The notes under the pieces are model-generated. The model was not told where the DNA came from. It was given only the letters and a program-made list of their open reading frames with translations, and ran no database searches. Both the position numbers and the translations under genes were made by a program. Shown here in pieces: positions 525 to 63,788 of a stretch of DNA of 64,000 nt. Within the stretch, counting starts at the first letter, position 1; the number at the start of each line of letters is the position of its first letter. Origin of the DNA: Sulfurospirillum oryzae (lineage in GTDB: Bacteria; Campylobacterota; Campylobacteria; Campylobacterales; Sulfurospirillaceae); NCBI RefSeq assembly GCF_025770725.1, contig NZ_JANZKZ010000002.1, forward strand, positions 186,001 to 250,000. The letters run 5' to 3'.

Positions 525-1652
525 ATGCGTTTTACTCATGCAACACCTGAAGCAACTTATGGTTTTGCCAAACGTTTTTCACATTATAAAGACTTTTATG
601 CAAGGCATAATGGGCTTATCTTCTCCAAGCTTGGTTTTGGAACCTTCAAAAAAGAGCCTTACAAAGAAGAAAATTATACATTTGACTATAAAGATGCCTT
701 AAAGAGTGCCATACAAGGCGGTGTGAATGTCATTGACACTGCCATAAACTACCGTTATCAACAAAGTGAACGTGAGATCGGCGAAGTGCTAGAAGAACTT
801 TTTGACAAGGGTGATGTAAAGCGCGAAGAGTTGATCATCTGTTCCAAAGGTGGCTTTGTCCCACTTGATTTTCCTTTTCCTGAAAATCCTTATGCGTGGA
901 TTCATGAGCATATTATTCAAAAAGGTTTGGCAAGTCCTGAAGAGATCGAGCTTGATCAACATTGTATGAGTCCTGCTTTTTTACAAGACTCGTTGGAACG
1001 CTCTTTAAAAAACTTACATGTAAAGTGTTTGGATATCTACTTTTTGCACAATCCAGAGACCCAACTGACTAAAATAGGCTACGACCAGTTTCTCAAAAAG
1101 CTTGAAGAGATCTTTGCATGTTTTGAAACGATGGTCAGTGAGGGAAAAATCAAAGCGTATGGTTTAGCGGTTTGGAACGCTTTTACTTATGAAGAAGGCA
1201 ATAGCGAGTACATTCGCCTTGAAGATGTCTACGATGTCGCTTGTCGTGTAGGCGGCGCTAATCATCATTTTAAGTACATCCAGCTTCCTTTTAACATTGC
1301 TAAAACCCATGCATACAGTGTACCAAACCAAAAGATGCGCGATGGCAACTACTACACACCTCTGCAGGTAGCGCACAAGCTAGGGCTTGGTGTGATGAGT
1401 AGCACGTCATTGTTGCAGATGCACCTTTTTCAAAAACCTTTTAAGCCTGAAATCGGTTTTCTTTTGGATTCCAAGATGGAGCTGCAAAGCGATGTTCAGC
1501 TTGCCCTTCAGTTTGTACGCTCAACTAGGGGTATTGTAACTTCGTTGTTTAGTTCAAGTAAAAGTGAACATGTAAGGAGCAATCTAGGCATTGCTACGAT
1601 AAATGCCACCAACAGTGCCAAATACAATCTTCTATACAAAGTGGAGCGATAA
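525..1652 (+). CDS. Aldo/keto reductase
   Basis: A 375-residue NAD(P)H-dependent oxidoreductase of the aldo/keto reductase superfamily. The family tetrad is visible: D71 and Y76 (DTAINYRY), K108 (ICSKGG) and H175 (FLHNPE). The start follows AAGAGG at a normal distance. It is longer than typical members (about 320 residues), with an extended N-terminus. The stop codon is one base before the start of the flavoprotein gene, so the two are probably co-transcribed and lead into nifT-nifA. The substrate cannot be deduced. Codons for LHVK at about 165-168 are an instance of the TTACATGTAA palindrome. Confidence 0.85.
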   Translation: MRFTHATPEATYGFAKRFSHYKDFYARHNGLIFSKLGFGTFKKEPYKEENYTFDYKDALKSAIQGGVNVIDTAINYRYQQSEREIGEVLEELFDKGDVKREELIICSKGGFVPLDFPFPENPYAWIHEHIIQKGLASPEEIELDQHCMSPAFLQDSLERSLKNLHVKCLDIYFLHNPETQLTKIGYDQFLKKLEEIFACFETMVSEGKIKAYGLAVWNAFTYEEGNSEYIRLEDVYDVACRVGGANHHFKYIQLPFNIAKTHAYSVPNQKMRDGNYYTPLQVAHKLGLGVMSSTSLLQMHLFQKPFKPEIGFLLDSKMELQSDVQLALQFVRSTRGIVTSLFSSSKSEHVRSNLGIATINATNSAKYNLLYKVER

Positions 1653-1653
1653 T

Positions 1654-3291
1654 ATGACGTACGATGTAATTGTAATAGGCTCAGGCATCGCAGGTCTCAT
1701 GGCGGCGATCGAGGCAAAGAGTGAACACAACAGTGTTGCTATCATCACTAAAAGCAATATTTTTAAATCCAACAGTTCGGTTGCGAGTGGGGGTATCAAT
1801 GCTGTTTTAGATGAAAATGATGAAGCTGAAATTCAAAAACACATTGACGATACGATGAAAAGCTCGAAAGATCTTGGCGATAGTAAGGCTATTAGTTATC
1901 TTTGCCATCAAGCACCGTTGATTATTAAAAAACTTGTTAAGTATGGTGTTGCGTTTGATCGTGATGAAAATGGCAAGATACTGCAGAGAAGTTTTGGTGG
2001 CGGTAGCTCGAAACGTACTTGTTTTGTGGGCGATAGCACGGGGTCAGCCATCACTCAAGCATTGATTAAAAAAGCAAAATTGGTAGGTGTTGAGTTTTTA
2101 GTCAATCACTTTGTGATGGACATCACTAAGATTGAAGAGTATGTGAGTGGTGTGGTTGCACTTAAAAAATTAGACTCAACAGTAACCGTTTATCCTGCAA
2201 AAGCAGTGGTGTTTGCAGGCGGTGGGTATGCGGGAATTTACAGGGGTTTTAGCACCAATGCCCAAGACTGCACAGGAGATCTTTTAAGCGTAGCGCTTCG
2301 TGCTGGTTTAAGTCTTAAAGATATGGAATTTGTGCAGTTTCACCCCACAGGTTTTGCTAAAACAAGCTACCTCGTCTCTGAGGCAGCAAGGGGAGAGGGT
2401 GGACATCTAGTCAACTCTGATGGAGAACGTTTTGTCAATGAACTAGGCACTCGCGATGTCCTTGCACGTGCCATTTTTGAACAGATGAGAGCGGGAAAAA
2501 AAGTCTATCTTGACATGCGTCATATCCCCAAAGACGTCCTAGAGACACGTATTCCTTCGTTGTATAAAAGTGCTTATAACCAAGTAGGCATTGATCTATC
2601 AGATGAGCTTTTAGAGATCAAACCTGTGGCACATTACAGTATGGGAGGTATTGCCTCTTCGATGACAAAAAGTGAAATTAAAGGGCTTTTTATCTGCGGA
2701 GAGAGCGCAGCTCTTGGTGTTCATGGCGCTAATCGTTTGGGTGGAAATTCGCTTTTAGAAGGCGCCGTTTTTGGAGAACTCGCAGGGAAAAAAGCGAGAA
2801 AGTATGCTTTTAATAAAGAGTTTTTACCCATTGATTATAACGTGGTGATTAAAAATATGAATTTGGTACAGCGCATTTTTGATGGAGATTGTTCCAAGAA
2901 TTTCAATGCAATGCGCATCTCTGTGGGGAAAATAATGTTTGATAAAGCGGGCATTTTTCGTAATGAAAGCTCCTTACAAGAAGCATTTGATTACATGAAA
3001 TACCTTCGCCTTGAGTCCAATACGCTTCACTGCATCGACAAAAGCAAGCACAATAACGTTGAACTTATCTCAATTTTAGAACTTAGAAATGCGCTTGAAC
3101 TCTCTGAAGCAATCATTCTTTGTGCTATGCAAAGAAAAGAGAGCAGAGGGGCTCATTTTAGAGAAGACTTTGCCTTTACAAGTAAAGAGGGAAATCGTCA
3201 TGTTCTTATTAAAGAACTTCAAAAAGGGTTTTTTAAAGTGCATTACGAAGAGAGTGGATTGACCAAGTGGCTCAAGAAAATTTTAACATAA
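1654..3291 (+). CDS. FAD-dependent fumarate reductase/L-aspartate oxidase family flavoprotein
   Basis: 545 residues, soluble. It begins with a dinucleotide-binding fold (VIGSGIAGL, residues 7-15). The family substrate-site motifs are present: HPTG near residue 230, RGEGG near 247, HYSMGG near 327 and GANRLGGNSLLE further on. The HYSMGG and LGGNSLLE forms are closer to fumarate reductase/succinate dehydrogenase flavoproteins than to NadB, which usually has HYTCGG and LASNSLLE. A NadB annotation is therefore possible but less well supported. The ATG at 1654 follows GGAG at a short distance. An in-frame upstream start lies inside the preceding gene and was rejected. Position just before nifT suggests a role in nitrogen fixation or redox supply. 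Confidence 0.75.
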   Translation: MTYDVIVIGSGIAGLMAAIEAKSEHNSVAIITKSNIFKSNSSVASGGINAVLDENDEAEIQKHIDDTMKSSKDLGDSKAISYLCHQAPLIIKKLVKYGVAFDRDENGKILQRSFGGGSSKRTCFVGDSTGSAITQALIKKAKLVGVEFLVNHFVMDITKIEEYVSGVVALKKLDSTVTVYPAKAVVFAGGGYAGIYRGFSTNAQDCTGDLLSVALRAGLSLKDMEFVQFHPTGFAKTSYLVSEAARGEGGHLVNSDGERFVNELGTRDVLARAIFEQMRAGKKVYLDMRHIPKDVLETRIPSLYKSAYNQVGIDLSDELLEIKPVAHYSMGGIASSMTKSEIKGLFICGESAALGVHGANRLGGNSLLEGAVFGELAGKKARKYAFNKEFLPIDYNVVIKNMNLVQRIFDGDCSKNFNAMRISVGKIMFDKAGIFRNESSLQEAFDYMKYLRLESNTLHCIDKSKHNNVELISILELRNALELSEAIILCAMQRKESRGAHFREDFAFTSKEGNRHVLIKELQKGFFKVHYEESGLTKWLKKILT

Positions 3292-4988: not shown

Positions 4989-5802
4989 ATTAGAAGCACG
5001 CATTAAAGAAGGTAGTTTAATTCCTTTTCTAGGGATGGGTGTCTTTAAAGAGACCAAAACAGAAGAGGGGGAGCAACTTCCATTTGATAGCGACTCGATG
5101 ATTTTGCGTCTTAATGGCGGAAGGGCGATGTCGCCTCGCTTGATGTATGAATACTCGCGTGCGGCGATGAGCCTAGAACAGCGCAAAGGGCGACCTTTTA
5201 TTGAGCAGATGACACATCATATCTTTACAGCAAAACCTTACCCAATTCCTGAAGTGTACGTGTGGCTTAAAACCTTGATGCCACACTATGTGGTCGATCT
5301 TAACCTTGATGATTCACTTCTTAAGCTTTACGCGGATGTTGATCACTTTTTGATTACAGGGGTGAGCCGCATTATGGCTGGGTATGATCGTTTTATTGTT
5401 TACATGTACACTTCTTCCACTAAAGCGTATCATCGCGTTGAAAAAGAGATGTTAAATCCCATGATTCCCATTCTTTTCAAACCCTTAGGATGCACTGTTC
5501 CTGAAAAAAGCTTTATTATTAGCGATGCTGACTTTGTCGATTGGTTGACTGAAGCGATGGGCGGTTACGCACTTCCACCGTTTCTCAAAACCTTTAAAAA
5601 TGAAAAAAGCTACCTTTTTTTAGGGATTGATTTTGATCGCGATACGTATCGTATGGTGGCAAATGAAGTCACACTTGGCTTGGATGGTGGCTATTTAGTG
5701 AATGATAAAAAAGAGATGAGTAAAAAAGAGGAGAAGTTTCTAACGTCTCATAAAATTGAAAAGTTAGAAACTTCATTAGAAAGTTTTTTAAAGGGTGCCT
5801 AA
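4975..5802 (+). CDS. SIR2-like domain protein, probably catalytically degenerate
   Basis: 275 residues. It starts at GTG 4975, 14 bases inside nifA and downstream of AAGGA, suggesting translational coupling. The layout resembles SIR2-like folds: PFLGMGVF (17-24) where the NAD-binding GAGxS motif would be, LNLDD (109-113) where TNxD would be, KPLG (169-172) where the catalytic-histidine HG motif would be, and YLFLGIDFDRD (213-223) like the closing fiGysl.D motif. The Ser, Asn and His expected of an active NAD hydrolase or deacylase are missing. I infer a binding or regulatory protein coupled to NifA. The relation to SIR2 is by hand alignment and moderately sure. Confidence 0.6.
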   Translation: MKKSELEARIKEGSLIPFLGMGVFKETKTEEGEQLPFDSDSMILRLNGGRAMSPRLMYEYSRAAMSLEQRKGRPFIEQMTHHIFTAKPYPIPEVYVWLKTLMPHYVVDLNLDDSLLKLYADVDHFLITGVSRIMAGYDRFIVYMYTSSTKAYHRVEKEMLNPMIPILFKPLGCTVPEKSFIISDADFVDWLTEAMGGYALPPFLKTFKNEKSYLFLGIDFDRDTYRMVANEVTLGLDGGYLVNDKKEMSKKEEKFLTSHKIEKLETSLESFLKGA

Positions 5803-7363: not shown

Positions 7364-8041
7364 TTACAAAAGATCAATGTGATGAGAAAATTTTTCGACA
7401 AGTGGGTTAGCAAATGGTCTAAGTTTCATCACTTCATTTTTAAGTTCAGTGATTTTTTTCTCGACATCTGCACCACAAGGGTAAATTTTCTTACACAATC
7501 TTACATGTAAAAAGACGCCAGTATGTTCATTGGCAACGATTTCTAGAATTTCACGTTTGTGTTCAGGGTGTTTATGAATCATGTCGTAAGCAAAGGCAAA
7601 AAGTGCATCGCCTTGATAGTCTTCAACCAAATCAAGTACGCTTGAAGCGTAGTGATAAATGAGGTATTGTTCAAACAGGGCTCTATCTTTTCCTGCAACA
7701 AAAGTGCATAAAAGGTCAAAGCTTCGATAAAAATCATCCGTGTTGATAATCATATCTTTGGTAACACGTTTAGTGTTAAGTGGCTCTATGGTGAGTGATT
7801 TTCCAAACGAGTTGATAATACCATCAATTGAGGCATTAGTAAAAAGAGCTTTTCCATTGATTTTCAGGGCAGATAATTCGCCTTTTGGGTAATCAAAACT
7901 GCAATCTTCCATTTGAATAAGCGCTAAAAGATCGTTAACATTTTTGTTTCTATCAATCGTGATAAAATGTTTTTTATAGTAAGGTAAAAAATCCGTTTTA
8001 GCGTCAAAGCGAAAGACGCTGAGGGCGAGCGTACACTCCAT
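7364..8041 (-). CDS. SdhB/FrdB-like protein without ferredoxin cysteines (DUF5644-like)
   Basis: 225 residues. The N-terminal 105 residues resemble the plant-ferredoxin domain of succinate dehydrogenase/fumarate reductase iron-sulfur subunits: SVFRFDAKTDFLPYYK at 8-23, LKINGKALF at 59-67 (as in VKINGKPVL), and LTIEPLNTKRVTKDMII at 83-99 (as in ITVEPLP..PVIKDLVVD). The [2Fe-2S] cysteines between 47 and 62 are absent except C47. The C-terminal helical half keeps only scattered cysteines. I believe such proteins are catalogued as DUF5644. First gene of a two-gene operon with the SdhE-like protein. A TTACATGTAA palindrome encodes LHVR near residue 178. Confidence 0.6.
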   Translation of the reverse strand: MECTLALSVFRFDAKTDFLPYYKKHFITIDRNKNVNDLLALIQMEDCSFDYPKGELSALKINGKALFTNASIDGIINSFGKSLTIEPLNTKRVTKDMIINTDDFYRSFDLLCTFVAGKDRALFEQYLIYHYASSVLDLVEDYQGDALFAFAYDMIHKHPEHKREILEIVANEHTGVFLHVRLCKKIYPCGADVEKKITELKNEVMKLRPFANPLVEKFSHHIDLL

Positions 8042-8233: not shown

Positions 8234-9058
8234 ATGTCAAAAGAGGCATTTTTTATTTCAGAATTTTCCAGTAAACACATCGGCGATGATGGTGCTGTTA
8301 TTGGGGATTTTGTTTATTCCAAAGATCTGTTTTGCGAAGATATTCACTTCAAGCGTTCGTGGATGAGCTTAGAGCAGATAGCCCAAAAAAGCATGCTGGT
8401 TAATATCTCCGATGCGATTGCTATGAATGCTAAACCTAAGTGGGCGCTTATCGGCGTGGTAATGCCGAAACATTTTACGTATGAACAATTGCGTGAATTA
8501 AGTACTGGGTTTCAAAATGTAGCACAAACGTATGGCGTTGAGATCATTGGTGGCGATACAACAGCAGGCGAAAAGTTGATGATCTCCATTACCATCATCG
8601 CAAAACGTCCTTCGAAAGTGCTTTATCGAAGCGGTGCGAAATACGGAGATTTGGTCGCCTTTACAGGTACATTAGGTCACTCTTACAAAGAGTTAACCAG
8701 ACTTTTGCGCGGTGGGCATATCGGCAAAGATTCACGCTTTATGAAACCAGCGTTAAGGGCAGATTTTCTTTATAAAGTTGCCAAACACTTAAATGCAGGC
8801 ATGGACATCTCTGATGGTCTTTCAAAAGACCTCTCAAGGCTTTTAAAAGCTAGTGGTAATTTAGGCTTACATGTAAAGCATAAAATGCCTAAACGAACGC
8901 TCTGTAGCGGTGAGGAGTATGAGATGCTTTTCACCTTTGATGCCCGTAAAAAAGCTATCATTAAGCGCATAGCAAAGCAGAGACGTACACCGATTACTAT
9001 TGTAGGACAAGTAGCACGTAAACACTATGTTTGCCGTTGTAAAGAACACCATTTTTAA
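8234..9058 (+). CDS. thiL: Thiamine-monophosphate kinase
   Basis: 274 residues of the AIR synthase-like ATP-binding fold. It phosphorylates thiamine monophosphate to thiamine diphosphate, the last step of the pathway. Motifs: IGDDGAVI near residue 16, the metal-binding DIHF segment, NISDAIAMNAKPKWALIGV, GGDTTAGE, and MDISDGLSKDLSRLL. It is shorter than most ThiL (about 310-330) with a reduced C-terminus. The start follows AGAGG. The other thi genes lie at 15.9-18.7 kb and 60.9 kb. LHVK near 213-216 is encoded by the iterated palindrome. Confidence 0.9.
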   Translation: MSKEAFFISEFSSKHIGDDGAVIGDFVYSKDLFCEDIHFKRSWMSLEQIAQKSMLVNISDAIAMNAKPKWALIGVVMPKHFTYEQLRELSTGFQNVAQTYGVEIIGGDTTAGEKLMISITIIAKRPSKVLYRSGAKYGDLVAFTGTLGHSYKELTRLLRGGHIGKDSRFMKPALRADFLYKVAKHLNAGMDISDGLSKDLSRLLKASGNLGLHVKHKMPKRTLCSGEEYEMLFTFDARKKAIIKRIAKQRRTPITIVGQVARKHYVCRCKEHHF

Positions 9059-9075: not shown

Positions 9076-10161
9076 ATGATTAGACAATTTTTTCTCTCCC
9101 ATTCGCCCATTAATGCGATGTTTACCAAAAATAGCAGTGACTTCGTGGTCAATGAAATTCCTCTGTATCCTTTTAGTGGTGAGGGCGAGCATCTTGTTTT
9201 ACATGTAAGAAAAAAAGACCTCACGACATGGGATATGTTGCAATACTTAAGCGAAGTAACAGGATGTAAAGTGCGTGATTTTGGTTATGCAGGGCTTAAA
9301 GACAAAGATGGCATGACAACGCAGTACATTTCGTTGCATAAGAATTTCGAGCCAAAACTTGCTACTTTTTCGCATGAAAAGATCAAAATTTTAGATAAAA
9401 CCTACCACAATAATAAAATCCGCACAGGACACTTAAAAGGCAATCGCTTTTTTGTCCGCCTTAAAAAGGTTAATCCTATTGATGCGAAAAAATTGCAAGA
9501 TGGACTCAAAAAGATAAGCAAAGAGGGGTTTCCTAACTTTTTTGGCTATCAGCGTTTTGGCATTGATGGCGACAACTATATCAAAGGCAAAGCAATTTTA
9601 GAAGGAAAACGCAAAGAGCGTAACCCTAAGATGAAAGAGTTTTTTATCAACGCTTATCAAAGTCATCTTTTCAATAACTGGCTTAGTAAACGTATTGAAA
9701 TAAGCCGTTTGATTGAAGAGTTTAATGCCGCCGATGCAACTCGCGCGACCAATTTACCCAAAGAGCTCGTCGAAAGCCTTAAAAAACAGCCACAGTTTTT
9801 CAAACTTCTTCATGGCGATGTTTTGCATCATTATCCTGCGGGGAAGGCGTTTGTATGCGAAAATGTCGAAGAAGAATTACCCCGCTTTTTGGAACGTGGA
9901 ATTACCATCGCAGGCTGGCTTGTGGGTGGCAAAAACATTAGAGCTGAGTATGAAGCAGGTGTCATAGAGCAGGAAATTTTTAAAGAAAGCGAGCCATTTT
10001 TAGACAAAATCAATGGAAGTAGACGTTTTGCATGGACTTTTGCAGAAGATGTTGAGGGTGTCTATAAAGAAGAAGAGGCATGGTTTGAAATGCACTTTTC
10101 ATTGCCTAAGGGCTCCTATGCAACCGTAATTATAGAAGAGCTAATAAAAGATACGCTATAA
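9076..10161 (+). CDS. truD: tRNA pseudouridine(13) synthase TruD
   Basis: 361 residues. It converts uridine 13 of tRNA-Glu to pseudouridine. The TruD catalytic motif GYAGLKDKDGMTTQY is present near residue 72, with the catalytic aspartate in KDKDG, followed by the RTGHLKGNRFFVRL and FPNFFGYQRFG blocks typical of the family. The start at 9076 follows AAGGA. It is 17 bases after thiL, consistent with an operon. The stop codon overlaps the -10 hexamer of rnpB. Confidence 0.93.
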   Translation: MIRQFFLSHSPINAMFTKNSSDFVVNEIPLYPFSGEGEHLVLHVRKKDLTTWDMLQYLSEVTGCKVRDFGYAGLKDKDGMTTQYISLHKNFEPKLATFSHEKIKILDKTYHNNKIRTGHLKGNRFFVRLKKVNPIDAKKLQDGLKKISKEGFPNFFGYQRFGIDGDNYIKGKAILEGKRKERNPKMKEFFINAYQSHLFNNWLSKRIEISRLIEEFNAADATRATNLPKELVESLKKQPQFFKLLHGDVLHHYPAGKAFVCENVEEELPRFLERGITIAGWLVGGKNIRAEYEAGVIEQEIFKESEPFLDKINGSRRFAWTFAEDVEGVYKEEEAWFEMHFSLPKGSYATVIIEELIKDTL

Positions 10162-15814: not shown

Positions 15815-15886
15815 TCCTCTTTTGATACCTTCTCACAACTTTCATAATCTTTACATGTAAAAGTAATTTAATTCATTTTAAGAGGA
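15815..15886 (+). promoter_or_regulatory. Expression platform: anti-Shine-Dalgarno and thiD ribosome binding site
   Basis: TCCTCTT at 15815-15821, just after the aptamer, is the exact complement of AAGAGGA at 15880-15886, the thiD Shine-Dalgarno. Pairing would hide the ribosome binding site, suggesting translational control. A full TTTACATGTAAA palindrome lies between them (15850-15861) and could form or hold a hairpin loop. No intrinsic terminator is seen. Confidence 0.55.
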
Positions 15887-15892: not shown

Positions 15893-16696
15893 ATGAAACA
15901 TTGTTTAACCATAGCGGGTTCGGACAGCTGTGGCGGAGCGGGCATTCAAGCTGACTTAAAAGCTTTTAGCGCCAATGGAACGTATGGCATGAGCGTTATA
16001 ACCGCAATTACTGCGCAAAATACGCAAGGTGTATTTGATGTGCAAGACATTAACCCCTCTGTGATACAGCATCAAATCGAAGCAATTTTTGATGATATTC
16101 GTGTCGATGCCATTAAAATCGGTATGGTCTCTCGCCCTGAAACGATTGAGATCATCGCAGAAACGCTTAAAAAATACCCCTTACCACCTTTAGTAGTTGA
16201 TCCTGTCATGATTTCCAAAAGTGGGTATGACCTATTACAACCTGAAGCCAAAAAAGCACTCATCGAAATTCTTTTACCGATGGCAACGCTTATCACTCCC
16301 AATCTTCCTGAAGCGGAAGTGATCGTTGGTTATAAGATCGATACGATTGAATTGATGCAAAAAGCCGCCGTTGATCTGCATAAACTGGGTTGTAAGTACG
16401 TGCTGGTTAAAGGAGGGCATTTGGAAAATGATGCCACCGATGTGCTTTATGATGGCGAGCAGTTTTATCTTTTACACTCTAAACGATTAGAGACGATTAA
16501 CACGCATGGAACGGGTTGTACGCTCTCTTCCGCCATTGCGGCTAACCTTGCCAAAGGTTTACATGTAAAGGAAGCAGTTGAGGAAGCCAAAGCGTATATT
16601 ACCGAAGCGATCACACATGGATTTAAACTAGGGCATGGCGTGGGGCCAGTGCATCATTTTTACGCACTTTACAAAAAAGCAGGAGTTGAGGCATGA
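15893..16696 (+). CDS. thiD: Hydroxymethylpyrimidine/phosphomethylpyrimidine kinase
   Basis: 267 residues of the ribokinase-like ThiD family. It phosphorylates HMP and HMP-P for thiamine synthesis. Motifs: TIAGSDSCGGAGIQADLK at the N-terminus, TAITAQNTQGV, DPVMISKSG, TPNLPEAE, and the anion-hole INTHGTGCTLSSAIAANL near the C-terminus. First gene of the riboswitch operon. It overlaps cytX by 4 bases (ATGA). LHVK near 223 comes from the iterated palindrome. Confidence 0.95.
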   Translation: MKHCLTIAGSDSCGGAGIQADLKAFSANGTYGMSVITAITAQNTQGVFDVQDINPSVIQHQIEAIFDDIRVDAIKIGMVSRPETIEIIAETLKKYPLPPLVVDPVMISKSGYDLLQPEAKKALIEILLPMATLITPNLPEAEVIVGYKIDTIELMQKAAVDLHKLGCKYVLVKGGHLENDATDVLYDGEQFYLLHSKRLETINTHGTGCTLSSAIAANLAKGLHVKEAVEEAKAYITEAITHGFKLGHGVGPVHHFYALYKKAGVEA

Positions 16697-17904
16697 TGGA
16701 AGAAAAGACCACATTAAGTGGATTTGGACTTTTTGCACTCTGGTTTGGTGCCGCTGTGTCAATGGCAGAGATTTTTACGGGCGGACTTATAGCGCCACTT
16801 GGGTTTAGCGAAGGTTTAAAAGCGATTCTTTTAGGACATCTTATCGGTGGTTTGATTCTTATTTTGGGTGGCTACATTGGAGCTAAAAGTAAGCTTCCTG
16901 CCATCATGTCTACACGCATCTCCTTTGGGCGTTATGGTTCGTATCTTTTTTCGTTTTTAAATGTGCTTCAACTCATTGGCTGGACAGCCGTGATGATCAT
17001 CTCGGGTGGGCGTGCTGCGAATGAGCTTGGCATTAGTCTGTTTGGATTTGATAGCATCAATACCTGGGCGATAGCCATTGGTGTTTTTATAGGACTTTGG
17101 ATTTGGCTTGGAAAAGTAGGGTTTCAAAAACTCAATGTCGTTGCTGTTGTTCTTCTTTTTGCGCTCACATTGGTTTTGTGTGGCGTTGTTTTTCAGGAGG
17201 GAAGCATTTTACATGTAAAGCCCACGGGTGAAATGAGTTTTGGCTCCGCGCTTGAATTGAGTGTCATTATGCCGCTTTCATGGTTACCACTCATTTCAGA
17301 CTATACACGTTTTGCGAAGAGTAAAAAAGGTGGACTCATCGGCAGTTTTACGGGGTATTTTGTAGGAAGCTCTTTGATGTACGCCATCGGTCTTGCCATC
17401 GCGCTTTATGCGCAAGATGCAAGTGTGGGAACGATGATGATGGCACTGCATTTAGGCTTTGCCGCTCTTGGCATCGTACTTCTCTCCACCATTACAACGA
17501 CCTTTTTAGATGCCTACTCAGCAGGCGTAACGTTTACGAACATTTTCCCCCAAATGAGCGAGCGAAAGATCGCGCTTGCTATGGCACTCATTGGTCTTTT
17601 GGTAGCACTTTTTACACCTATAGAGCAGTATGAAACCTTTTTATACGCCATAGGTTCTGTCTTTGGACCGCTCTTTGCCATTTTGCTGAGTGACTATTTT
17701 ATCTTTAAAAAAGAACAGATCGAGCCTACTTTATCTTTACATGTAGGCTCATTCATTGTGTGGGCAATGGGTGTTGTGCTTTATTATTGGTTTATGACAC
17801 TTGATTTAACGCTGGGATCAACACTGCCTACAATGCTTGCAACGAGCACGATTTTTATTATTTCAAAAAAGGCGATCGCATCATGGACATTAAAGAGCAA
17901 CTAA
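16693..17904 (+). CDS. cytX: Putative hydroxymethylpyrimidine transporter CytX
   Basis: 403 residues, about 12 membrane segments, of the nucleobase:cation symporter-1 family. FALWFGAAVSMAEIFTGG at the N-terminus, RISFGRYGSYLFSFLN and LPLISDYTRF fit the CytX subgroup found in thiamine operons. It sits between thiD and thiM under a TPP riboswitch, so HMP or a related pyrimidine is the likely substrate. It overlaps thiM by 22 bases. One exact palindrome encodes LHVK (17209), and a near-copy with one changed base encodes LHVG (17737). Confidence 0.88.
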   Translation: MMEEKTTLSGFGLFALWFGAAVSMAEIFTGGLIAPLGFSEGLKAILLGHLIGGLILILGGYIGAKSKLPAIMSTRISFGRYGSYLFSFLNVLQLIGWTAVMIISGGRAANELGISLFGFDSINTWAIAIGVFIGLWIWLGKVGFQKLNVVAVVLLFALTLVLCGVVFQEGSILHVKPTGEMSFGSALELSVIMPLSWLPLISDYTRFAKSKKGGLIGSFTGYFVGSSLMYAIGLAIALYAQDASVGTMMMALHLGFAALGIVLLSTITTTFLDAYSAGVTFTNIFPQMSERKIALAMALIGLLVALFTPIEQYETFLYAIGSVFGPLFAILLSDYFIFKKEQIEPTLSLHVGSFIVWAMGVVLYYWFMTLDLTLGSTLPTMLATSTIFIISKKAIASWTLKSN

Positions 17905-23596: not shown

Positions 23597-23741
23597 ATAA
23601 AAACTCATTACATGTAAAAATTTTTGCTTAGTGAAAAGCGAGTGGTATTATAAAAAAAGTTTTGCAAGAACTTGATTAAACGCTACGACAAATAAGGCAA
23701 ACTCTATCCCTTTGCCGATAGCGTAGTTTTTAATTAAGTTG

Positions 23742-25362: not shown

Positions 25363-25389
25363 TTATCGGTTAAAATACGAAAAACTTTA
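25363..25389 (-). promoter_or_regulatory. Sigma-28 (FliA) promoter of motAB overlapping a TTACATGTAA palindrome
   Basis: Read on the minus strand: TAAAGTTT, an 11-base spacer, then ACCGATAA, against the consensus TAAAGTTT-N11-GCCGATAA (one mismatch). The TAAA of the -35 is the right arm of a complete TTTACATGTAAA palindrome at 25386-25397. Confidence 0.85.
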
Positions 25390-43553: not shown

Positions 43554-44118
43554 GCCACTTTTTACAACCATTTCCGCGGGCAAATATAAGGGCAAGAAAC
43601 TAGAACTTCCTTCATTAGAAAGTACACGAAGCACGAAAGCCATTCTTAAAGGTTCTCTTTTTGATACATTACAATATGATATTCTAGATGAAACGTTTGT
43701 CGAGGTGTTTGGTGGAAGTGGATCAATGGGACTCGAAGCGCTTAGTCGAGGTGCCAAGCATGCATATTTTATTGAAAAAGATAGAGCAGCCTTTAGTACG
43801 TTGAAAAATAACTGTAAAGCTATTGCTGAAAAGAACACAACACCAATGCACGGAGATAGTTTTGTGCTCTTTCCAACGCTTCTTTCTACGCTTACATGTA
43901 AGACTTATTTTTATTTTGATCCGCCTTTTTCGATTCGTGAGGGGATGGAAGATATTTACACAAAAGTACTCTCTTTGATTGCTTCAATTCCAAGAGAAAA
44001 AGCGCATTTGATTGTTATCGAGCACATGAGCAATATGAGTTTACCTGAAAATATTGGCGAATATATGCTTTCTAAAACAAAAAAATTTGGGAATAGCTCA
44101 CTAAGCTATTACATGTAA
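43543..44118 (+). CDS. rsmD: 16S rRNA (guanine(966)-N(2))-methyltransferase
   Basis: 191 residues of the RsmD family. AGKYKGKKLELP near the start, STKAILKGSLFDTL, VEVFGGSGSMGLEALSRGA (SAM site) and the N6/N2 methylase motif DPPF. It methylates G966 of 16S rRNA. The stop codon is part of a TTACATGTAA palindrome (Tyr-Met-stop), and another copy lies within the gene at 43892. Confidence 0.9.
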   Translation: MATKPLFTTISAGKYKGKKLELPSLESTRSTKAILKGSLFDTLQYDILDETFVEVFGGSGSMGLEALSRGAKHAYFIEKDRAAFSTLKNNCKAIAEKNTTPMHGDSFVLFPTLLSTLTCKTYFYFDPPFSIREGMEDIYTKVLSLIASIPREKAHLIVIEHMSNMSLPENIGEYMLSKTKKFGNSSLSYYM

Positions 44119-46500: not shown

Positions 46501-46526
46501 ATCCTTACATGTAAAAGGATAATAAG

Positions 46527-49617: not shown

Positions 49618-50359
49618 AAAAGTTGCAAAACTTTTAAAAGAAGAATCTTTCAAACGAAATCATTTGGAGGAAATTAGTTTGGAGCGCCCTGATCCTTTGA
49701 TGGTTGCTTCAAAGCACAAAGATGAGTTTAGTGCGCTTATTTGCGCGCTTTTTGCCTATGGCAATGTTCAAGCCATCATCAAGTTTTTAGAGAGTTTGGA
49801 TTTTTCACTGCTCGAAAAAGATGAGATAAGCATTACTCAAACACTAAGTCAGCACTATTATCGTTTTCAAACCTCCCAAGATATTCAGCAATTTTTTCTT
49901 ACATGTAAAAGAGCAAAAGCCCAATCTGCCACATTAGAGTCTATCTTTTTAGAGGGCTATCGCAAAAGCCATAACGTGATGGATGGATTAAGAGGGTTAA
50001 TAGCATTTTTATACGATATAAATCCCTATAGGTCGCGTGGATATGAGTTTTTATTGGGCAAAATACCTGCTACTATCCCAACGTCTCCTTATAAACGATG
50101 GCACATGTATCTAAGGTGGATGGTGCGTAAAGACCATCTTGATCTTGGTCTTTGGAGCGGAGTTGAGAGCAAAGATCTGCTTGTCCCTCTTGATACGCAT
50201 ACGTTTGCACTAGGAAAAAAACTGGGTTTGATTCAGCGAAAATCGTATGATTTTAAAGCGGTGTTAGAACTCACCGAGTCATTTAAAAAGCTAGATCATA
50301 ATGACCCGATTAAGTACGATTTTGCACTGTATCGCTTAGGACAAGAGCGACGTTTTTAA
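49607..50359 (+). CDS. TIGR02757 (DUF2400) family protein
   Basis: 250 residues. Matches the family through ERPDPLMVASKHKDEFSALICALFAYGN at the N-terminus, RLNMYLRWM-like HMYLRWMVRKD, DLGLW and LVPLDTHTF near the C-terminus. Function unknown; distantly resembles helix-hairpin-helix DNA glycosylase-type folds. Its stop codon overlaps that of the convergent hyfI-like gene by a few bases. Confidence 0.85.
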   Translation: MTFEKVAKLLKEESFKRNHLEEISLERPDPLMVASKHKDEFSALICALFAYGNVQAIIKFLESLDFSLLEKDEISITQTLSQHYYRFQTSQDIQQFFLTCKRAKAQSATLESIFLEGYRKSHNVMDGLRGLIAFLYDINPYRSRGYEFLLGKIPATIPTSPYKRWHMYLRWMVRKDHLDLGLWSGVESKDLLVPLDTHTFALGKKLGLIQRKSYDFKAVLELTESFKKLDHNDPIKYDFALYRLGQERRF

Positions 50360-51108
50360 ACTCTTCCAAGAAATTGTAGAAGTCCATTGAGTGCTGTGTA
50401 AGGGTGCGGTGGGCATCCAGGAATGTAGAGATCAACGGGTAAAAGCGAATCGACACCATTGCACACTTCATCGCTCTTTTGGAACAAACCTCCTGAAATG
50501 GCACACGTGCCTGAGGCAATGACAATCTTTGGACTAGGCAGGGCATCGTAAGTATCCATGAGCGCTTGTTTCATGTTGAGTGTCACAGGGCCTGTGATGA
50601 TGATACCATCAGCATGACGAGGCGAAGCTGTAAAACTAATACCAAAACGATTAAGGTCATAAACGGGTGTGCCTAAAACATTGAGGTCTGCTTCACACGC
50701 ATTACATCCACCTGCGGATACAAGGCGCAATTGAAGCGATCTTTTAAAAAGTTTTTGTATTTGTTGGTTTAATTGAAACCCAATTTTTTCGACCTCTTTG
50801 GTCACAAGGAGTGTTGATCTTTGATGGGACGCCAAGCGATACTCATGGGTAAATTGAATGTTGTTATGGGTGCAAAGCGGAACACATTGATCACAAAAGA
50901 TACATTTGCCTAAATCAATCGCAATGCTTTGCTCTTTTTTTGCAATCGCCTCTGTCGGACAAACATCTATGCACGCTTTACATGTAAGATCACAACTTCC
51001 CGTTATCTTTGGCACGCCTGAAAAACGAGGGGATAAAATAGGCTCAATTTTAGGGTATTTACTGGTGTTATAACCTTGTCTCAATCGTTCCAAAAGTACA
51101 AAAAACAT
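50356..51108 (-). CDS. Hyf/Ehr complex small subunit fused to a two-cluster ferredoxin domain
   Basis: 250 residues combining HyfH-type and HyfI-type parts. Residues 39-50 and 69-79 hold two 4Fe-4S motifs (C39, C43, C46, C50; C69, C72, C75, C79). The C-terminal domain is NuoB/HyfI-like with GGCNACEAD (C135, C138), GTCAISGG and IPGCPPHP, all four ligands of the proximal cluster present. Start at MFFVLLERL (51108) after AAGGA. An upstream TTG lies in the preceding gene. It should pass electrons to or from the large subunit. Confidence 0.85.
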   Translation of the reverse strand: MFFVLLERLRQGYNTSKYPKIEPILSPRFSGVPKITGSCDLTCKACIDVCPTEAIAKKEQSIAIDLGKCIFCDQCVPLCTHNNIQFTHEYRLASHQRSTLLVTKEVEKIGFQLNQQIQKLFKRSLQLRLVSAGGCNACEADLNVLGTPVYDLNRFGISFTASPRHADGIIITGPVTLNMKQALMDTYDALPSPKIVIASGTCAISGGLFQKSDEVCNGVDSLLPVDLYIPGCPPHPYTALNGLLQFLGRV

Positions 51109-51118
51109 CGCTTTATCC

Positions 51119-52630
51119 TTATAAATCAAAGCCGCAGTAAGAGAGGTTAAAGCTCTTATTGCACAGAGGGAAATCTGAAATTTGCCCCTCTCTCATGGCA
51201 AGACTGAGTGCTGTCCAATTATGAAAAGATGGGTCTGTGATTTTATAGCGTACCAATTTTCCATGCTCATCGGTTTGCGCTACATGCACAATTTCACCTC
51301 TCCAACCCTCTGTCAGCGAAATACCTAAGGCATTTGAAGGTAAGACAACATCATTGACTCGCGTAGGTTTTTGAATGGCTATCTCTTGAATACTTCGTAA
51401 CATGTTATGAATAAGCTCTAAAGAGGAGACAATTTCAGCTCTTCGCATCATCGCTCTTGCAAAAATATCACACGATGCTTCAAGCGGTATGTCATAACTT
51501 ATAGCATTATAATAACCAAAAGGGTAATTTTTTCGTGTGTCGCGAGCTATAGCGCACGCCTTGGCGGCAATACCTACAAAACCATAGGTTATAACATCTT
51601 CTTTGGTTATTTTTCCGATGTTTTCAACTCTTTCTAAAACGGATGTCGATCTAAAAAAGAGATCAATAGCGCTGAGTGTTTTGCTTTGCAATACTTTGAG
51701 TTGCTTGGCTATCGTGGCGGCGAGATTGAAGTCAATATCATAACCCACACCCCCTACGATAATACCGCCTCTACCAAATCTATTGCCGGTGATGCTGGCG
51801 GTAAGGTTGAGAAAGTCGCCCCTCAGTTTTCCGCAGTAAGACGCCGTTGGTAAAAATCCCGTATCGCCAGAGAGCGCACCAATATCGCCCACGTGGTTAG
51901 CAATTCTCTCCAACTCTAAAAGCACTATACGAATGAGTTCACTTTTTTGAGAGACGTGAATACCTGCCATAGCTTCAACGAGTTGCACATAGGCTAAAGA
52001 GTGCCCTATGGTTGTATCGCCTGCAAGAACTTCCATTTGTGAAAGCGTTTGAGGGGAGGGGCCGCCTTGTAGCATTCTCTCAATGCCTCTGTGCTGATAC
52101 CCTAATGATATTTCTAAATTCACTACATTTTCGCCATAGCATTGAAATCGAAAGTGCCCTGGCTCAATGACCCCCGCATGAACAGGACCTACGGCTACTT
52201 CGTGTACATCTTCACCACTGACCTGAAAATAGTTGAGATCACCACACGCATTTTTCTTTACATGTAAAGAAAAGTCTTGCTCAAATCGTACAGGTTTAAG
52301 CCACGGATGATCGTGCACAGTTACACCAAATTGTTCGGCGATTTCTCTCTCAAAAAGATGGATTTGAGGGATGATGGAAGCATGTGACTGGAACGTATTG
52401 TTGATGAGCTCAAATCGGGAGATTTTTAAAAGAGAGGTTGTGTCATTACCCAAAATGCAGACCAAATGCAACGCGTTATTCATAGGTGTTGCAAAAAGCG
52501 ATAAGACGCGGAAATTATGGTTAGTGACATTTTCTACAATGTTGCTCCAAAACAGCTCTTCGGTTGAACTGGGAATATCTTCTATTTTGCCCCATGAAGG
52601 ATTACATGTAAAGAGTGTACTGTAACTCAT
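51119..52630 (-). CDS. Hyf/Ehr complex large subunit, NiFe-binding cysteines missing
   Basis: 503 residues: an N-terminal NuoC/30 kDa-like part (about 1-120; IHLFEREIAEQFGVTVHDHP) and a NuoD/HycE-like part. In group 4 hydrogenases two CxxC pairs bind the NiFe centre. Here the first reads AGDT at 203-206 and the C-terminus reads NLSYCGFDL instead of DPCxxC. The conserved surroundings (YQHRGIERML, IGHSLAYVQLVEA) remain. It is therefore unlikely to be a hydrogenase. It resembles energy-converting hydrogenase-related (Ehr) subunits. Overlaps the membrane subunit gene by 4 bases. Confidence 0.85.
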   Translation of the reverse strand: MSYSTLFTCNPSWGKIEDIPSSTEELFWSNIVENVTNHNFRVLSLFATPMNNALHLVCILGNDTTSLLKISRFELINNTFQSHASIIPQIHLFEREIAEQFGVTVHDHPWLKPVRFEQDFSLHVKKNACGDLNYFQVSGEDVHEVAVGPVHAGVIEPGHFRFQCYGENVVNLEISLGYQHRGIERMLQGGPSPQTLSQMEVLAGDTTIGHSLAYVQLVEAMAGIHVSQKSELIRIVLLELERIANHVGDIGALSGDTGFLPTASYCGKLRGDFLNLTASITGNRFGRGGIIVGGVGYDIDFNLAATIAKQLKVLQSKTLSAIDLFFRSTSVLERVENIGKITKEDVITYGFVGIAAKACAIARDTRKNYPFGYYNAISYDIPLEASCDIFARAMMRRAEIVSSLELIHNMLRSIQEIAIQKPTRVNDVVLPSNALGISLTEGWRGEIVHVAQTDEHGKLVRYKITDPSFHNWTALSLAMREGQISDFPLCNKSFNLSYCGFDL

Positions 52631-55613: not shown

Positions 55614-57584
55614 TTATTTTCCCACATACAAGAGCATAATAATGAGTGCTGTAAAAATATAAAGCACATAAATACCCATGTATCCATTATGAATTAACTT
55701 TCTTGTTTTCGCCGCAAATAAAAGCGTGGAATCTGCTATTTTGAGTAATGTGTAGATAACTTTATCGTTTTGACGTAGATAAAATTGATATTTTTGAACA
55801 AAAATCCCTTTCATGGATAACTCACTCTTTTTACGTTTGAGTGCCCAGCTAAAAAGATTCATAATCATTTGCGCCAAGGAAGCAGGTGTGTATTGTATTC
55901 TGGGTGTGCCATAAGGAAAAGCACATGCCCATGTGTCTATATCGGTTTTGATTTTACCTTTGAGGGTATAAAAGAGTATGCCTCCACTTAGAGCTACAAT
56001 AATCAATAATCCACTATAAGCATACGATAAATCGCTCATCGCATTAAGTTTGAGCATAAGTGGCGCATGGTTGAAAAGCATTGTGGCACGTGAGAGGAAG
56101 CTTTCTAAAATAAAGGGAAAGAGTCCTAACATAAAACAAATGACCGATAAAATACCCATAGGTAGGAGCATTGACCATGAAGATTCTTTTACATGTAAGA
56201 GTTCAATATGGCGAGGTTTACCCAAAAATGAGATACCAAAAACTTTCACAAAACAGGCAAGGGCTAATCCTCCAATGATAGAGAGAGCTATAATCCCCGC
56301 CATAACAGGAAGAAGCGAGTTTTGAGTAGAAAGAAGACTTTTAAACATTCCCATATACAGTAACCATTCACTTGCAAAACCATTAAGCGGTGGTAATCCG
56401 CTAATTGCCACAGCACCTATGAGAAAGAAGAGGGCTGTATAGGGTTGCACTTTGATGATGCCACCGTAATGATTGATGTCCCTAGTATGGTATTTTTCAA
56501 TAATAGAGCCTGCACTGTAAAAGAGCAAAGGTTTAAAGAGTGCATGATTGATGACGTGAAAGAGCGCACCGGAGAGTCCAAAAAGAACCAGTGTTTCGTT
56601 GCGATAACTTTTTCCAAGTATCGCAAGCCCAATGCCAATAAGAATAATACCGATGTTTTCTATACTATGGTAGGCTAAAAGTTTTTTGATGTCATGTTGG
56701 GCAATGGCGTAAACAACGCCTAAAATACCCGAGATAATTCCGAGCCCAAAAACTACCCATCCCCACCAATGAGGTATGTTGGTAAATAAAGAAGCCACTC
56801 TGATGATGCCATAAATTCCCATTTTAATCATAACGCCAGAGAGAAGTGCTGAGATAGCAACCGGTGCGCTTGCATGAGCGGAAGGGAGCCAAAAATATAA
56901 AGGGAAGATGCCCGCTTTGACACCAAAGCCAAAAAGTCCTAGCAAAAATATCCATGAAGCAAGACTTGAATGTGCATCAATATGCCCAAGTGCAGAGGTA
57001 AAATCAAAGTAGCCAAAGTAGTTTTGAATGATGCCAAACAGACCAAAAAGTGCCACAATACCCGTATGTGTCGCGATGATATAAAGATAACCAGCTTTTT
57101 GTGCTTCTTCATCTAATTCATCAATCGTTACTAAAAAATAGGCAAGTAAAGACATGATTTCCCAACACAACAAAAACATCATAAAGTTATCGCAGATAAC
57201 AAGAAGTATCATAAAGATGGTAAAGAAAGAGAGAAAAAGCCTGTATTTAACCGATTGGTGTAAACCCTTTTGAATCGTTGACCAATAGGATATGCTGTAA
57301 ATCGCACTCATCGCACTGATGGTATAAATTGGGATTAAAAAAACAAGGCTGAGTGTATCTATTTTGATTGAAAAATGACCAAAAAGTGTTTCAAAAGGTA
57401 GTATCGCCGCAATATCTGAATGATTGTGTAATTGCAGCAAAATAAACACCCACCCCACAATGCTACCTATTACATGTAAAGAAGCAGAAAGCTTGTCTGA
57501 TAAAGAGGGTTTCATTTTTGCTGTAAAAAAAGGAATAAGACCTGCAAGAAGTATACAAAAAAGTGACAATACAATGAGCGTCAT
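55614..57584 (-). CDS. Hyf/Ehr proton-pumping membrane subunit, HyfB/NuoL-like
   Basis: 656 residues, about 15-16 membrane helices. Motifs: MFLLCWEIMSLLAYFLV, FGVKAGIFPLYFWLPSAHASAPVAISALLSG and KKLLAYHSIENIGIILIGIG. It is an antiporter-like ion pump and the first gene of the six-gene operon (B-C-E-F-G-I order). The start follows GAGGAG. A TTTACATGTAAG and a second copy occur at 56189 and 57470. Confidence 0.9.
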   Translation of the reverse strand: MTLIVLSLFCILLAGLIPFFTAKMKPSLSDKLSASLHVIGSIVGWVFILLQLHNHSDIAAILPFETLFGHFSIKIDTLSLVFLIPIYTISAMSAIYSISYWSTIQKGLHQSVKYRLFLSFFTIFMILLVICDNFMMFLLCWEIMSLLAYFLVTIDELDEEAQKAGYLYIIATHTGIVALFGLFGIIQNYFGYFDFTSALGHIDAHSSLASWIFLLGLFGFGVKAGIFPLYFWLPSAHASAPVAISALLSGVMIKMGIYGIIRVASLFTNIPHWWGWVVFGLGIISGILGVVYAIAQHDIKKLLAYHSIENIGIILIGIGLAILGKSYRNETLVLFGLSGALFHVINHALFKPLLFYSAGSIIEKYHTRDINHYGGIIKVQPYTALFFLIGAVAISGLPPLNGFASEWLLYMGMFKSLLSTQNSLLPVMAGIIALSIIGGLALACFVKVFGISFLGKPRHIELLHVKESSWSMLLPMGILSVICFMLGLFPFILESFLSRATMLFNHAPLMLKLNAMSDLSYAYSGLLIIVALSGGILFYTLKGKIKTDIDTWACAFPYGTPRIQYTPASLAQMIMNLFSWALKRKKSELSMKGIFVQKYQFYLRQNDKVIYTLLKIADSTLLFAAKTRKLIHNGYMGIYVLYIFTALIIMLLYVGK

Positions 57585-60910: not shown

Positions 60911-61442
60911 TCCTTATTTTTATACCTCAGATCCTTTTATATGTGTTCAAAAACTTTTACATGTAAAGGCAAAACACCAGCCTGATTACATCTGTTTGAG
61001 AGACAAAACAACCTCTGATTATACCTCGCTTGCTAAAGCTGTTGCAAGGGCAGGCATTCAAGATGAAAGAACCAAACTCTATTTGCATACGGATTTTATG
61101 CTTGCACATCAACTCGGCTGTGCTGGCGTGCATCTACCTTCCACTGCTTTACATGTAATCCAAAATGCTAAAGCCTTAGGCTTGGAAGTGATTGCAAGTA
61201 CGCATACATTAGAGGAAGTAGAGGAAGCTCAAAAAAGAGGAGCAGATGCGATCACATTTAGTCCCATTTTTGCAACGCCCAATAAGGGCAAACCGCTTGG
61301 TTTAGAGAAGTTAAAAGAAATAAATGATAGAATCCGCGTTAAATGTTTCGCGCTTGGTGGCATCATCAATATGGAGCAAGTGAAAGCTTGTGAAGAGGTT
61401 GGTGTGTACGGTTTTGCCTCAATTCGCTTTTTTATAGATTAA
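60885..61442 (+). CDS. Thiamine phosphate synthase-like protein (ThiE/TenI family)
   Basis: 185 residues of the TIM-barrel ThiE/TenI family. ICLRDK at the start, GVHLPS, STHTLEEVEEAQKRGADAITFSPIFATPNKGKPLG and ALGGI further on. ThiE normally joins HMP diphosphate and thiazole phosphate. TenI-type members act as thiazole tautomerase. At 185 residues it is short for ThiE, so either role is possible. It carries two palindromes, at 60957 (LHVK) and 61149 (LHVI). Confidence 0.75.
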   Translation: MIKHYLITDPYFYTSDPFICVQKLLHVKAKHQPDYICLRDKTTSDYTSLAKAVARAGIQDERTKLYLHTDFMLAHQLGCAGVHLPSTALHVIQNAKALGLEVIASTHTLEEVEEAQKRGADAITFSPIFATPNKGKPLGLEKLKEINDRIRVKCFALGGIINMEQVKACEEVGVYGFASIRFFID

Positions 61443-62888: not shown

Positions 62889-62900
62889 GCGAGGGAGAGC

Positions 62901-63788
62901 GTGAGTATAGCGGTCATTGGAGCTGGGAAATGGGGACAAGCACTTCAGTTTGCACTTTCTCGTAATGTTACATGTAAGATCACCTCACGCCAAATAAAAC
63001 CTCTTGAAAACTTTGTCAGCCTTGAAGAGGCTTTAAAGTGTGAGTACCTTATCTTTGCACTTCCTGCTCAAGTCGTTCGTGGCTGGCTTGAGGCGCATTT
63101 TACATTTAGTGGTCAAAAAATTCTGGTTGCTGCCAAAGGCATAGAGCAGGGAAGTGGGGCATTTCTGAATGAAATTTTTGCCAAGCATGTTCCCGAAGAT
63201 CATCTCAGTTTTTTATCGGGTCCATCATTCGCAAGTGAGGTCATGCAAGGACTTCCTACTGCCGTTGTCATTAATTCAACCAATGAAACCCTCTCCAAAG
63301 AGTTTGCCGCATTTTTCCCAACATTTATTAAAACGTATACTTCTAAAGATGTCATTGGTGCGGAAGTGTGTGGGGCTTATAAAAATGTTCTTGCCATTGC
63401 GAGTGGTATTTGCGATGGACTAAAGCTGGGCAATAATGCAAGAGCGAGTTTAATCGCCCGTGGTCTTGTTGAGATGCGCCGTTTTGGAAAATTCTTTGGT
63501 GCGCAGGATGAGACTTTTTTGGGCTTAAGTGGCGCAGGAGATCTTTTTTTAACCGCTTCAAGTACGCTCTCTCGTAACTACCGTGTCGGTCTTTTTTTGG
63601 CTGAAGGCAAAAAACTTGAAGATATTTTAAATGAATTAGGTGAAGTGGCAGAGGGTGTGTTTACTTCCGAAGCAATCTTCGAGCTTTCCACTAAACATTC
63701 TATTTATACACCCATTGCCCATGAAATAGCACTTATTCTAAAAGGCAAAGAGCCTCGAATAAGCGTGAAAGATTTATTGGCTGATTGA
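62901..63788 (+). CDS. gpsA: Glycerol-3-phosphate dehydrogenase [NAD(P)+]
   Basis: 295 residues. NAD-binding IAVIGAGKWGQALQ, LPAQVVR, VAAKGIEQ, LSGPSFASEV, CGAYKNVLAIASGICDGLKLGNNARASLI and LSGAGDLFLT. It makes glycerol 3-phosphate for phospholipid synthesis. It is slightly shorter than usual (about 330) with compact loops. GTG start after GAGGGAG. Its TGA overlaps the next ATG. Confidence 0.95.
   Translation: MSIAVIGAGKWGQALQFALSRNVTCKITSRQIKPLENFVSLEEALKCEYLIFALPAQVVRGWLEAHFTFSGQKILVAAKGIEQGSGAFLNEIFAKHVPEDHLSFLSGPSFASEVMQGLPTAVVINSTNETLSKEFAAFFPTFIKTYTSKDVIGAEVCGAYKNVLAIASGICDGLKLGNNARASLIARGLVEMRRFGKFFGAQDETFLGLSGAGDLFLTASSTLSRNYRVGLFLAEGKKLEDILNELGEVAEGVFTSEAIFELSTKHSIYTPIAHEIALILKGKEPRISVKDLLAD

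Follow-up and report, generated by a model that had tools for sequence, protein, structure and literature searches.

A palindrome with a CATG centre is kept in about a thousand copies in most Sulfurospirillum genomes and may be a self-DNA signal

Why does one ten-base palindrome, TTACATGTAA, recur 36 times in a 64,000-nucleotide stretch (the window) of the genome of Sulfurospirillum oryzae (G000; 2,632,398 bases, 2.63 Mb)? The first exact copy begins at 1014 and the last ends at 62977; in 100 dinucleotide shuffles of the window the mean number of copies is 0.16 and the largest is 2. The initial annotation of this DNA, made from the letters alone, had claimed 36 exact copies with about 0.2 expected, and our count bears this out. 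Both TTACATGTAA and the twelve-mer TTTACATGTAAA (16 copies in the window) are perfect palindromes; the core, TACATGTA, occurs without both flanks at two further positions, 5401 and 17738. The window's IorA protein shares 95% identity with that of S. diekertiae JPD-1, in keeping with this genus.

We counted the palindrome in whole genomes, using the reversed word as the control. The genome that holds the window contains 1056 copies of TTACATGTAA (control, 3) and 549 of TTTACATGTAAA (control, 0), and TTACATGTAA is present in all 24 Sulfurospirillum genomes, ranging from 49 copies (G009; control, 9) to 1496; thus, the enrichment that the initial annotation saw is not limited to the window. For the order Campylobacterales we counted TACATGTA in 298 genomes (29 in the same family and 269 outside it) and called a genome enriched if its count is 90 or more and no less than threefold that of the reversed control. 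In the family 27 of 29 genomes are enriched, the exceptions being G009 (109 versus 50) and G085 (28 versus 25); outside it only five of 269 are enriched, all in a single other family, f17 (G147, G169, G220, G239, and G200). The genomes of 26 loci related to the window, which overlap with the 298, have from 17 to 1605 copies of TACATGTA, with that of L024 at chance (17 versus 13). About a thousand near-perfectly kept copies are, then, the rule in most Sulfurospirillum; among the matches listed from the openly licensed literature, judged by title, this palindrome is undescribed for Sulfurospirillum, and we did not find this kind of signal described there.

The copies are also conserved at orthologous places. 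In five relatives that share 76–82% nucleotide identity with the window, the numbers of its sites that survive intact are 12 of 14 (L009), 13 of 13 (L010), 4 of 4 (L014), 9 of 9 (L015), and 12 of 13 (L016), in total 50 of 53 comparisons; these are not independent, since L014–L016 are close kin and window sites are counted repeatedly. Of ordinary 10-mers, 9–16% survive intact. In the reverse direction, all 50 aligned sites of these relatives also occur in the window. The initial annotation had asked whether orthologous copies are kept or gained: they are kept far above background, with zero gains in 50. Other loci keep part of the sites (L011, 6/10; L032, 9/13; L018, 6/8; L017, 3/6; L029, 2/2; L027, 1/5) or none (L012, 12 sites; L019–L024, 27 in all; L026, 3; L028, 3; L031, 4; L034, 3); four loci with little aligned DNA, compared separately, keep 2/2 (L013), 0/1 (L025), 2/3 (L030), and 2/2 (L033). 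Whole-genome counts, relatives, and orthologous conservation all agree, so the core claim of the initial annotation is upheld: the palindrome is a real, genome-wide signal under selection, neither local nor a product of chance.

L012 keeps none of 12 sites, whereas L010, which is equally distant from the window, keeps 13 of 13. In a tree of 15 concatenated genes L012 falls inside the window's group (Shimodaira–Hasegawa approximate likelihood ratio test 98, bootstrap 86; its inner position is unresolved), and the site-sharing loci L014–L016 and L018 fall outside it; the simplest reading is therefore that L012 lost its sites. A tree of IorA alone did not yield a placement of L012. The metagenome-assembled genome of L012, which we take to be G035 (their counts are identical), still contains 342 copies of TACATGTA against 32 for the control. 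Active removal of sites in L012 was considered and rejected: the lost sites carry 3.2 mismatches on average against a background of 2.0, an excess that relaxed codons are equally able to explain. GGCC and CCGG are strongly avoided in L009, L010, L011, L012, and L016 (for L009, one GGCC versus 34.9 expected), a hint of other restriction systems.

The signal is all or none. In a 400 kb sample of S. diekertiae JPD-1 (G031), TACATGTA occurs 220 times where a third-order model with the motif masked expects 2.7 (about 80-fold), whereas its 24 possible single-mismatch forms occur 97 times (107.7 expected), that is, at chance; the corresponding numbers are 64 versus 75.4 expected in G000 and 52 versus 57.8 in G017. 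One-off forms at chance beside so many perfect copies mean that sites are either whole or gone. An apparent depletion of one-off forms in S. diekertiae, up to twofold, was an artefact of a Markov model that included the motif and rose to chance once the motif was masked.

Around a fixed CATG centre the flanks vary by lineage, so we describe them as dialects. Reading outward from TACATGTA, the S. diekertiae flank is T (95%), T (78%), and C (47%), with CTTTACATGTAAAG as the full consensus. S. cavolei UCH003 (G033) differs in that the outer base of the core is T or G (115 such one-off forms versus 17.7 expected); in 400 kb of its DNA the half-sites vary independently (116:74:11 seen, 116.5:73.1:11.5 expected). 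Several more distant loci have C in the flank, as CTTACATGTA or CTACATGTAA in L019–L021 and as CTACATGTA in L022, L023, L026, L027, L031, and L034; L025, L029, and L030 retain TTACATGTAA. G085, a complete sister genome (loci L240–L259), has no excess of TACATGTA but contains 166 copies (control, 2) of a different palindrome that is also centred on CATG, TATCATGATA, of which any other of the 45 genomes counted has at most 21.

The sites in the window, listed without strand, are as follows (ORF, open reading frame).

1014..1023, TTACATGTAA, in the aldo/keto reductase gene
5401..5408, TACATGTA core with one altered flank (C follows)
7501..7510, TTACATGTAA, in ORF 7364-8041(-)
8867..8876, TTACATGTAA, in ORF 8234-9058(+)
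9199..9208, TTACATGTAA, in truD
15851..15860, TTACATGTAA, between ORFs
16559..16568, TTACATGTAA, in ORF 15893-16696(+)
17209..17218, TTACATGTAA, in cytX
17738..17745, TACATGTA core with one altered flank (G follows)
21140..21149, TTACATGTAA, in ORF 20695-21435(+)
21370..21379, TTACATGTAA, in ORF 20695-21435(+)
21820..21829, TTACATGTAA, in the ABC-F gene
23608..23617, TTACATGTAA, at the start of the ABC-F gene
25387..25396, TTACATGTAA, between ORFs
27431..27440, TTACATGTAA, near the start of ORF 26178-27446(-)
28938..28947, TTACATGTAA, in the photolyase gene, cluster of three
28981..28990, TTACATGTAA, in the photolyase gene, cluster of three
29017..29026, TTACATGTAA, in the photolyase gene, cluster of three
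30888..30897, TTACATGTAA, in the chemotaxis receptor gene
32370..32379, TTACATGTAA, in ORF 31817-32764(-)
32785..32794, TTACATGTAA, between ORFs, close pair
32807..32816, TTACATGTAA, between ORFs, close pair
34135..34144, TTACATGTAA, at the stop codon of ORF 34135-34569(-)
35964..35973, TTACATGTAA, in ORF 35864-36400(-)
37668..37677, TTACATGTAA, in iorA
38307..38316, TTACATGTAA, between ORFs
43892..43901, TTACATGTAA, in ORF 43543-44118(+)
44109..44118, TTACATGTAA, at the stop codon of ORF 43543-44118(+)
46505..46514, TTACATGTAA, upstream of ORF 46527-46955(+)
49899..49908, TTACATGTAA, in ORF 49607-50359(+)
50978..50987, TTACATGTAA, in ORF 50356-51129(-)
52258..52267, TTACATGTAA, in ORF 51119-52630(-)
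52602..52611, TTACATGTAA, in ORF 51119-52630(-)
56189..56198, TTACATGTAA, in the hyfB-like gene
57470..57479, TTACATGTAA, in the hyfB-like gene
60957..60966, TTACATGTAA, in ORF 60882-61442(+)
61149..61158, TTACATGTAA, in ORF 60882-61442(+)
62968..62977, TTACATGTAA, in ORF 62901-63788(+)

The three exact copies in the photolyase gene (28938-29026) lie inside 90 bases; L009 and L010 keep all three and L032 keeps two.

Placement was examined with a simple gene caller in DNA of S. diekertiae and G000 totalling 664 kb, the window included. Of 304 sites, 102 lie at least partly outside the called genes (16 of these are at the ends of sampled stretches), compared with 28.5 expected (3.6-fold), so the intergenic excess that had been suspected from the window is real; the density is highest between convergent genes (19 sites in 5.1 kb) and lowest between divergent genes (9 in 10.3 kb). 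The other 202 sites are inside genes, where they encode Leu-His-Val (135) or Thr-Cys (63) or are located at gene ends (4). This placement does not fit a transcription-factor operator, for which sites in promoter regions would be expected. The long gaps pointed out earlier are present but unremarkable: they match near-random spacing, which most of the six genomes analysed show; in S. diekertiae pairs closer than 100 bases are somewhat over-represented. Regular spacing is not claimed; the variance among 20-kb samples is low in S. diekertiae (p 0.07), and other genomes show no such effect or the reverse (G169, G033). Because the 20 samples round the complete S. diekertiae chromosome contain an even 5–15 sites per 20 kb, with no positional bias, the palindrome is unlikely to act as parS, matS, or SlmA sites do.

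Which enzyme might act on the CATG centre? G000 encodes, outside the window (G000:C3:196220-197194), a 325-residue adenine methyltransferase of the D12 class (PF02086) that shares 51% identity with its ortholog in G144, a Helicobacter-like genome in which the gene order is cysE, iceA, methyltransferase; by eye, G281 and G302 have the same order, and we take this locus to be the iceA locus of H. pylori. The methyltransferase of that locus in H. pylori, M.HpyI, modifies the adenine of CATG (PMC10423294; this and the other papers cited by PMC number are represented by excerpts, and what we attribute to each is what its excerpt states). By orthology, the Sulfurospirillum enzyme probably targets CATG as well.

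The link of the sites to this methyltransferase is supported, with exceptions. Among members of the genus with genomes at least 97% complete, the 12 carriers have a median of 520 copies of TACATGTA per Mb and the five non-carriers 42, 96, 122, 249, and 500 (p 0.005; the genomes are not independent, and the value for G011, 270 copies, is the count for the genome of L017, taken as the same). In family f17, for all 28 genomes sampled, four of six carriers but one of 22 non-carriers are enriched (p 0.003). The enzyme was found in 22 of the 29 genomes of the family that includes the window, and enrichment there does not differ between genomes with it (21 of 22) and without it (6 of 7); outside that family 4 of 65 genomes with the enzyme and 1 of 204 lacking it are enriched (p 0.013), at an order-wide limit of 1e-50 that admits about a dozen more distant matches. 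Enzyme-bearing genomes poor in TACATGTA include G082 and G152. The genome of L012, which keeps none of the window's sites, has no methyltransferase. A rule that the palindrome is present where the methyltransferase is present fails across the order, with exceptions both ways; the enzyme is a likely partner of the palindrome but cannot be its whole cause. In G220 and G147 (f17; loci L160 and L176) the orphan methyltransferase gene adjoins a tsaD-like gene (by eye), which suggests a settled chromosomal place. Methyltransferases of PF01555 occur in 11 of 24 genomes with no evident relation to site counts.

IceA was found in seven of the 60 genomes examined (G097, G022, G144, G281, G302, G011, and G315), with stops in G281, split in G302, and as a 30% partial match in G315; sites are few or not in excess in all of these but G315, which has 165 copies (control, 16). 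Among the methyltransferase carriers examined, 31 of 34 without IceA are enriched compared with one of six with it, a contrast that comes largely from one family (G003, G006, and G034 were judged by their 10-mer count). No IceA match was found in Sulfurospirillum genomes that bear the methyltransferase. However, iceA is broken in two of the three Helicobacter-like genomes and the palindrome is nevertheless absent from them, which makes the link with IceA weak. One Sulfurospirillum genome, G011, has an IceA-like nuclease gene (G011:C17:1466-1981; 41% identical), and a methyltransferase ortholog was not found in it.

Mobile DNA provides further instances. Two S. diekertiae plasmids with genes in common, pSDCE1 and pSDIE1, each have a divergent copy of the methyltransferase, located at 1692-2732 of L142 (NZ_CP059996.1) and near 6933-7829 of L143 (NZ_CP045454.1); that of pSDIE1 is in pieces. 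The flanking T is found in 14 of 28 half-sites on pSDCE1, compared with 416 of 440 in the S. diekertiae chromosome sample. The proposal that the methyltransferase subtype sets the dialect found no support: the plasmid and S. cavolei subtypes are related, yet different positions are relaxed. In IMG/VR, bacterial-virus contigs L300–L332 encode relatives up to 52% identical to the methyltransferase; no phage-borne enzyme with a palindrome of its own was found in the 33 contigs examined (64 found). CATG is below its first-order expectation in 28 of these 33, probably through evasion of CATG restriction.

How does this palindrome compare with known systems? In form, the likeness to HIP1 (highly iterated palindrome 1, GCGATCGC) of cyanobacteria that the initial annotation drew holds: the Sulfurospirillum word is a perfect palindrome at kilobase density, most carriers have an orphan methyltransferase that probably acts on its core, some do not, and one exceptional relative has an alternate palindrome, as some cyanobacteria have alternate HIPs (PMC4390886). 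It departs from HIP1 in sequence and in the setting of DNA repair. The word is AT-rich with a CATG centre, and its one-off forms are at chance here, whereas Elhai, in the excerpt, calls one-off forms of HIPs common in many cyanobacteria (PMC4390886). In Elhai's model HIP sites owe both their origin and their protection to methyl-directed MutS/MutL repair (PMC4390886); the C-terminal MutL domain (MutL_C, PF08676) was found in none of 24 Sulfurospirillum genomes compared with 11 of 14 controls (MutS was not searched for), so this model cannot work here as proposed.

The palindrome also resembles the DNA uptake sequences (DUS) of Neisseriaceae and the uptake signal sequences (USS) of Pasteurellaceae. 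Perfect copies outnumber singly mismatched ones, which in Pasteurellaceae marks uptake sequences, unlike regulator binding sites (PMC1626085); sites are both genic and intergenic; the distribution is lineage-specific; dialects share a fixed core, as uptake-sequence dialects do (PMC3630211); and copies number in the hundreds or more, far above expectation (1056 versus 3). It is unlike them in being palindromic, with a probable methyltransferase target at its centre, in a campylobacterotal host for which uptake is only inferred. Within the same order, C. jejuni takes up only DNA with sites methylated by CtsM, which marks a short site required by the uptake machinery (PMC8468864); the site in C. 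jejuni is short and occurs often, whereas in Sulfurospirillum a long, rare word has accumulated. For the enzyme, the closest known system is the M.HpyI/IceA restriction-modification system of H. pylori, which targets CATG; here the enzyme-bearing Sulfurospirillum genomes are without an IceA match, and the three Helicobacter-like genomes have 8–10 copies of TACATGTA, with no such excess.

Our tentative preference, held at a little below even, is that TTTACATGTAAA may mark self DNA in the manner of an uptake sequence, possibly with CATG methylation as part of what is read; we prefer a signal of this type because DUS and USS are reported to show the same mix of features. The competence machinery, whose channel protein ComEC was found in 23 of 24 Sulfurospirillum genomes, would include a receptor that prefers DNA bearing the perfect site, as with the uptake sequences of Neisseria and Haemophilus, and homologous fragments that keep or restore the site would recombine into the genome, leaving about a thousand fixed sites and hardly any intermediate decay. 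The CATG centre would be the target of the orphan M.HpyI-type adenine methyltransferase, which most Sulfurospirillum genomes retain, and the reader would probably recognise the methylated core within its flanks, as in the CtsM case in C. jejuni; such a reader would explain the palindromic form, the varying flanks around a constant CATG, and the thinner signal in four of the five Sulfurospirillum species with near-complete genomes that have no enzyme. The complete mechanism, in which the orphan enzyme writes CATG, the receptor reads it only in TTTACATGTAAA, and molecular drive through transformation locks about a thousand copies, is itself rather unlikely. Several observations weigh against an uptake signal read in this way. 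G009, nearly devoid of sites, retains ComEC; uptake or transformation in Sulfurospirillum is not reported among the literature matches listed; and the uptake sequences known to us are asymmetric, not palindromic. The reciprocal comparison found no gained site, so ongoing spread is not seen. The enzyme is not required, since six of the seven family genomes that lack a match to it retain the enrichment, G017 most strikingly with 1201 copies (one of the seven, G292, has a C-terminal piece), as does G169 in the other family; nor is it sufficient, since outside the family 61 of 65 carriers show no enrichment for TACATGTA. Finally, sites in a looser dialect occur on the plasmids (14 on pSDCE1 and 13 on pSDIE1 versus about 0.7 expected) and on a filamentous-phage-like contig, L428 (IMGVR_UViG_2558860208_000001; 7 copies of TACATGTA in 11.9 kb versus 0.28 expected). 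L428 encodes a Zot-like protein and a protein-IV-like secretin and has slight DNA similarity to a stretch of G169.

The strongest rival, unlikely but a serious contender, is that the palindrome, as a HIP1-like methylation target, serves the chromosome itself: the orphan enzyme would mark CATG, a dimeric reader would use the marked palindromes in replication, repair, or strand marking, and selection on every replicon would keep them. It would account well for a perfect palindrome centred on the enzyme's probable target, for the same-centred TATCATGATA in enzyme-bearing G085, which recalls the alternate HIPs (PMC4390886), for two plasmids that have sites and each encode the enzyme themselves (on one of them the gene is fragmented), and for genomes with the IceA nuclease having zero or comparatively few sites. 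It must contend with an order-wide distribution in which the palindrome occurs without the enzyme and the enzyme without the palindrome, with the failure of the published mismatch-repair model in 24 genomes without MutL and no known reader, and with 33 viral contigs (of 64) whose enzyme relatives are accompanied by no such palindrome. That the sites bind an abundant protein of the nucleoid or of segregation, with no role for methylation, seems improbable: the independent half-sites of S. cavolei (116:74:11) and the persistence of sites in G017 and G169 without a methyltransferase match fit it, but the absence of chromosomal bias (5–15 per 20 kb, 20 samples), near-matches not above chance, unlike a relaxed regulator consensus (PMC1626085), and flanks that change between lineages do not. 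A 10–12 bp dyad, which is typical of a homodimer, also counts for such a protein. A Chi-like site that tames a nuclease of the AddAB/RecBCD type, and so marks self DNA, would fit the density, the spread, and the presence on both plasmids and chromosome; the Chi sites known to us are asymmetric and used in one orientation, and we consider this explanation very improbable. That the palindrome is a functionless by-product of mutation or composition is hardly credible: nothing specific speaks for it, the excess is 80-fold over the masked third-order model (220 versus 2.7) with the reversed control near chance, and orthologous conservation already contradicts it. The systems that the initial annotation had listed as candidates are thus narrowed: uptake and methylation remain, and may be one; a chromosome-organising role is disfavoured, and MutL-dependent repair is out.

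To our knowledge, the function of HIP1-like palindromes is an open question. Sulfurospirillum provides an independent HIP-like case outside the cyanobacteria, in bacteria without MutL, for which the Elhai 2015 model cannot account, with apparent losses and one palindrome switch among relatives. S. diekertiae and S. cavolei, among the hosts, are culturable and not pathogenic, so the writer, the reader, and the function can be tested directly. Our findings suggest that self-DNA signals in Campylobacterota are spread more widely than the C. jejuni case; if true, a methylation-gated uptake palindrome would unite HIPs and uptake sequences in one class.

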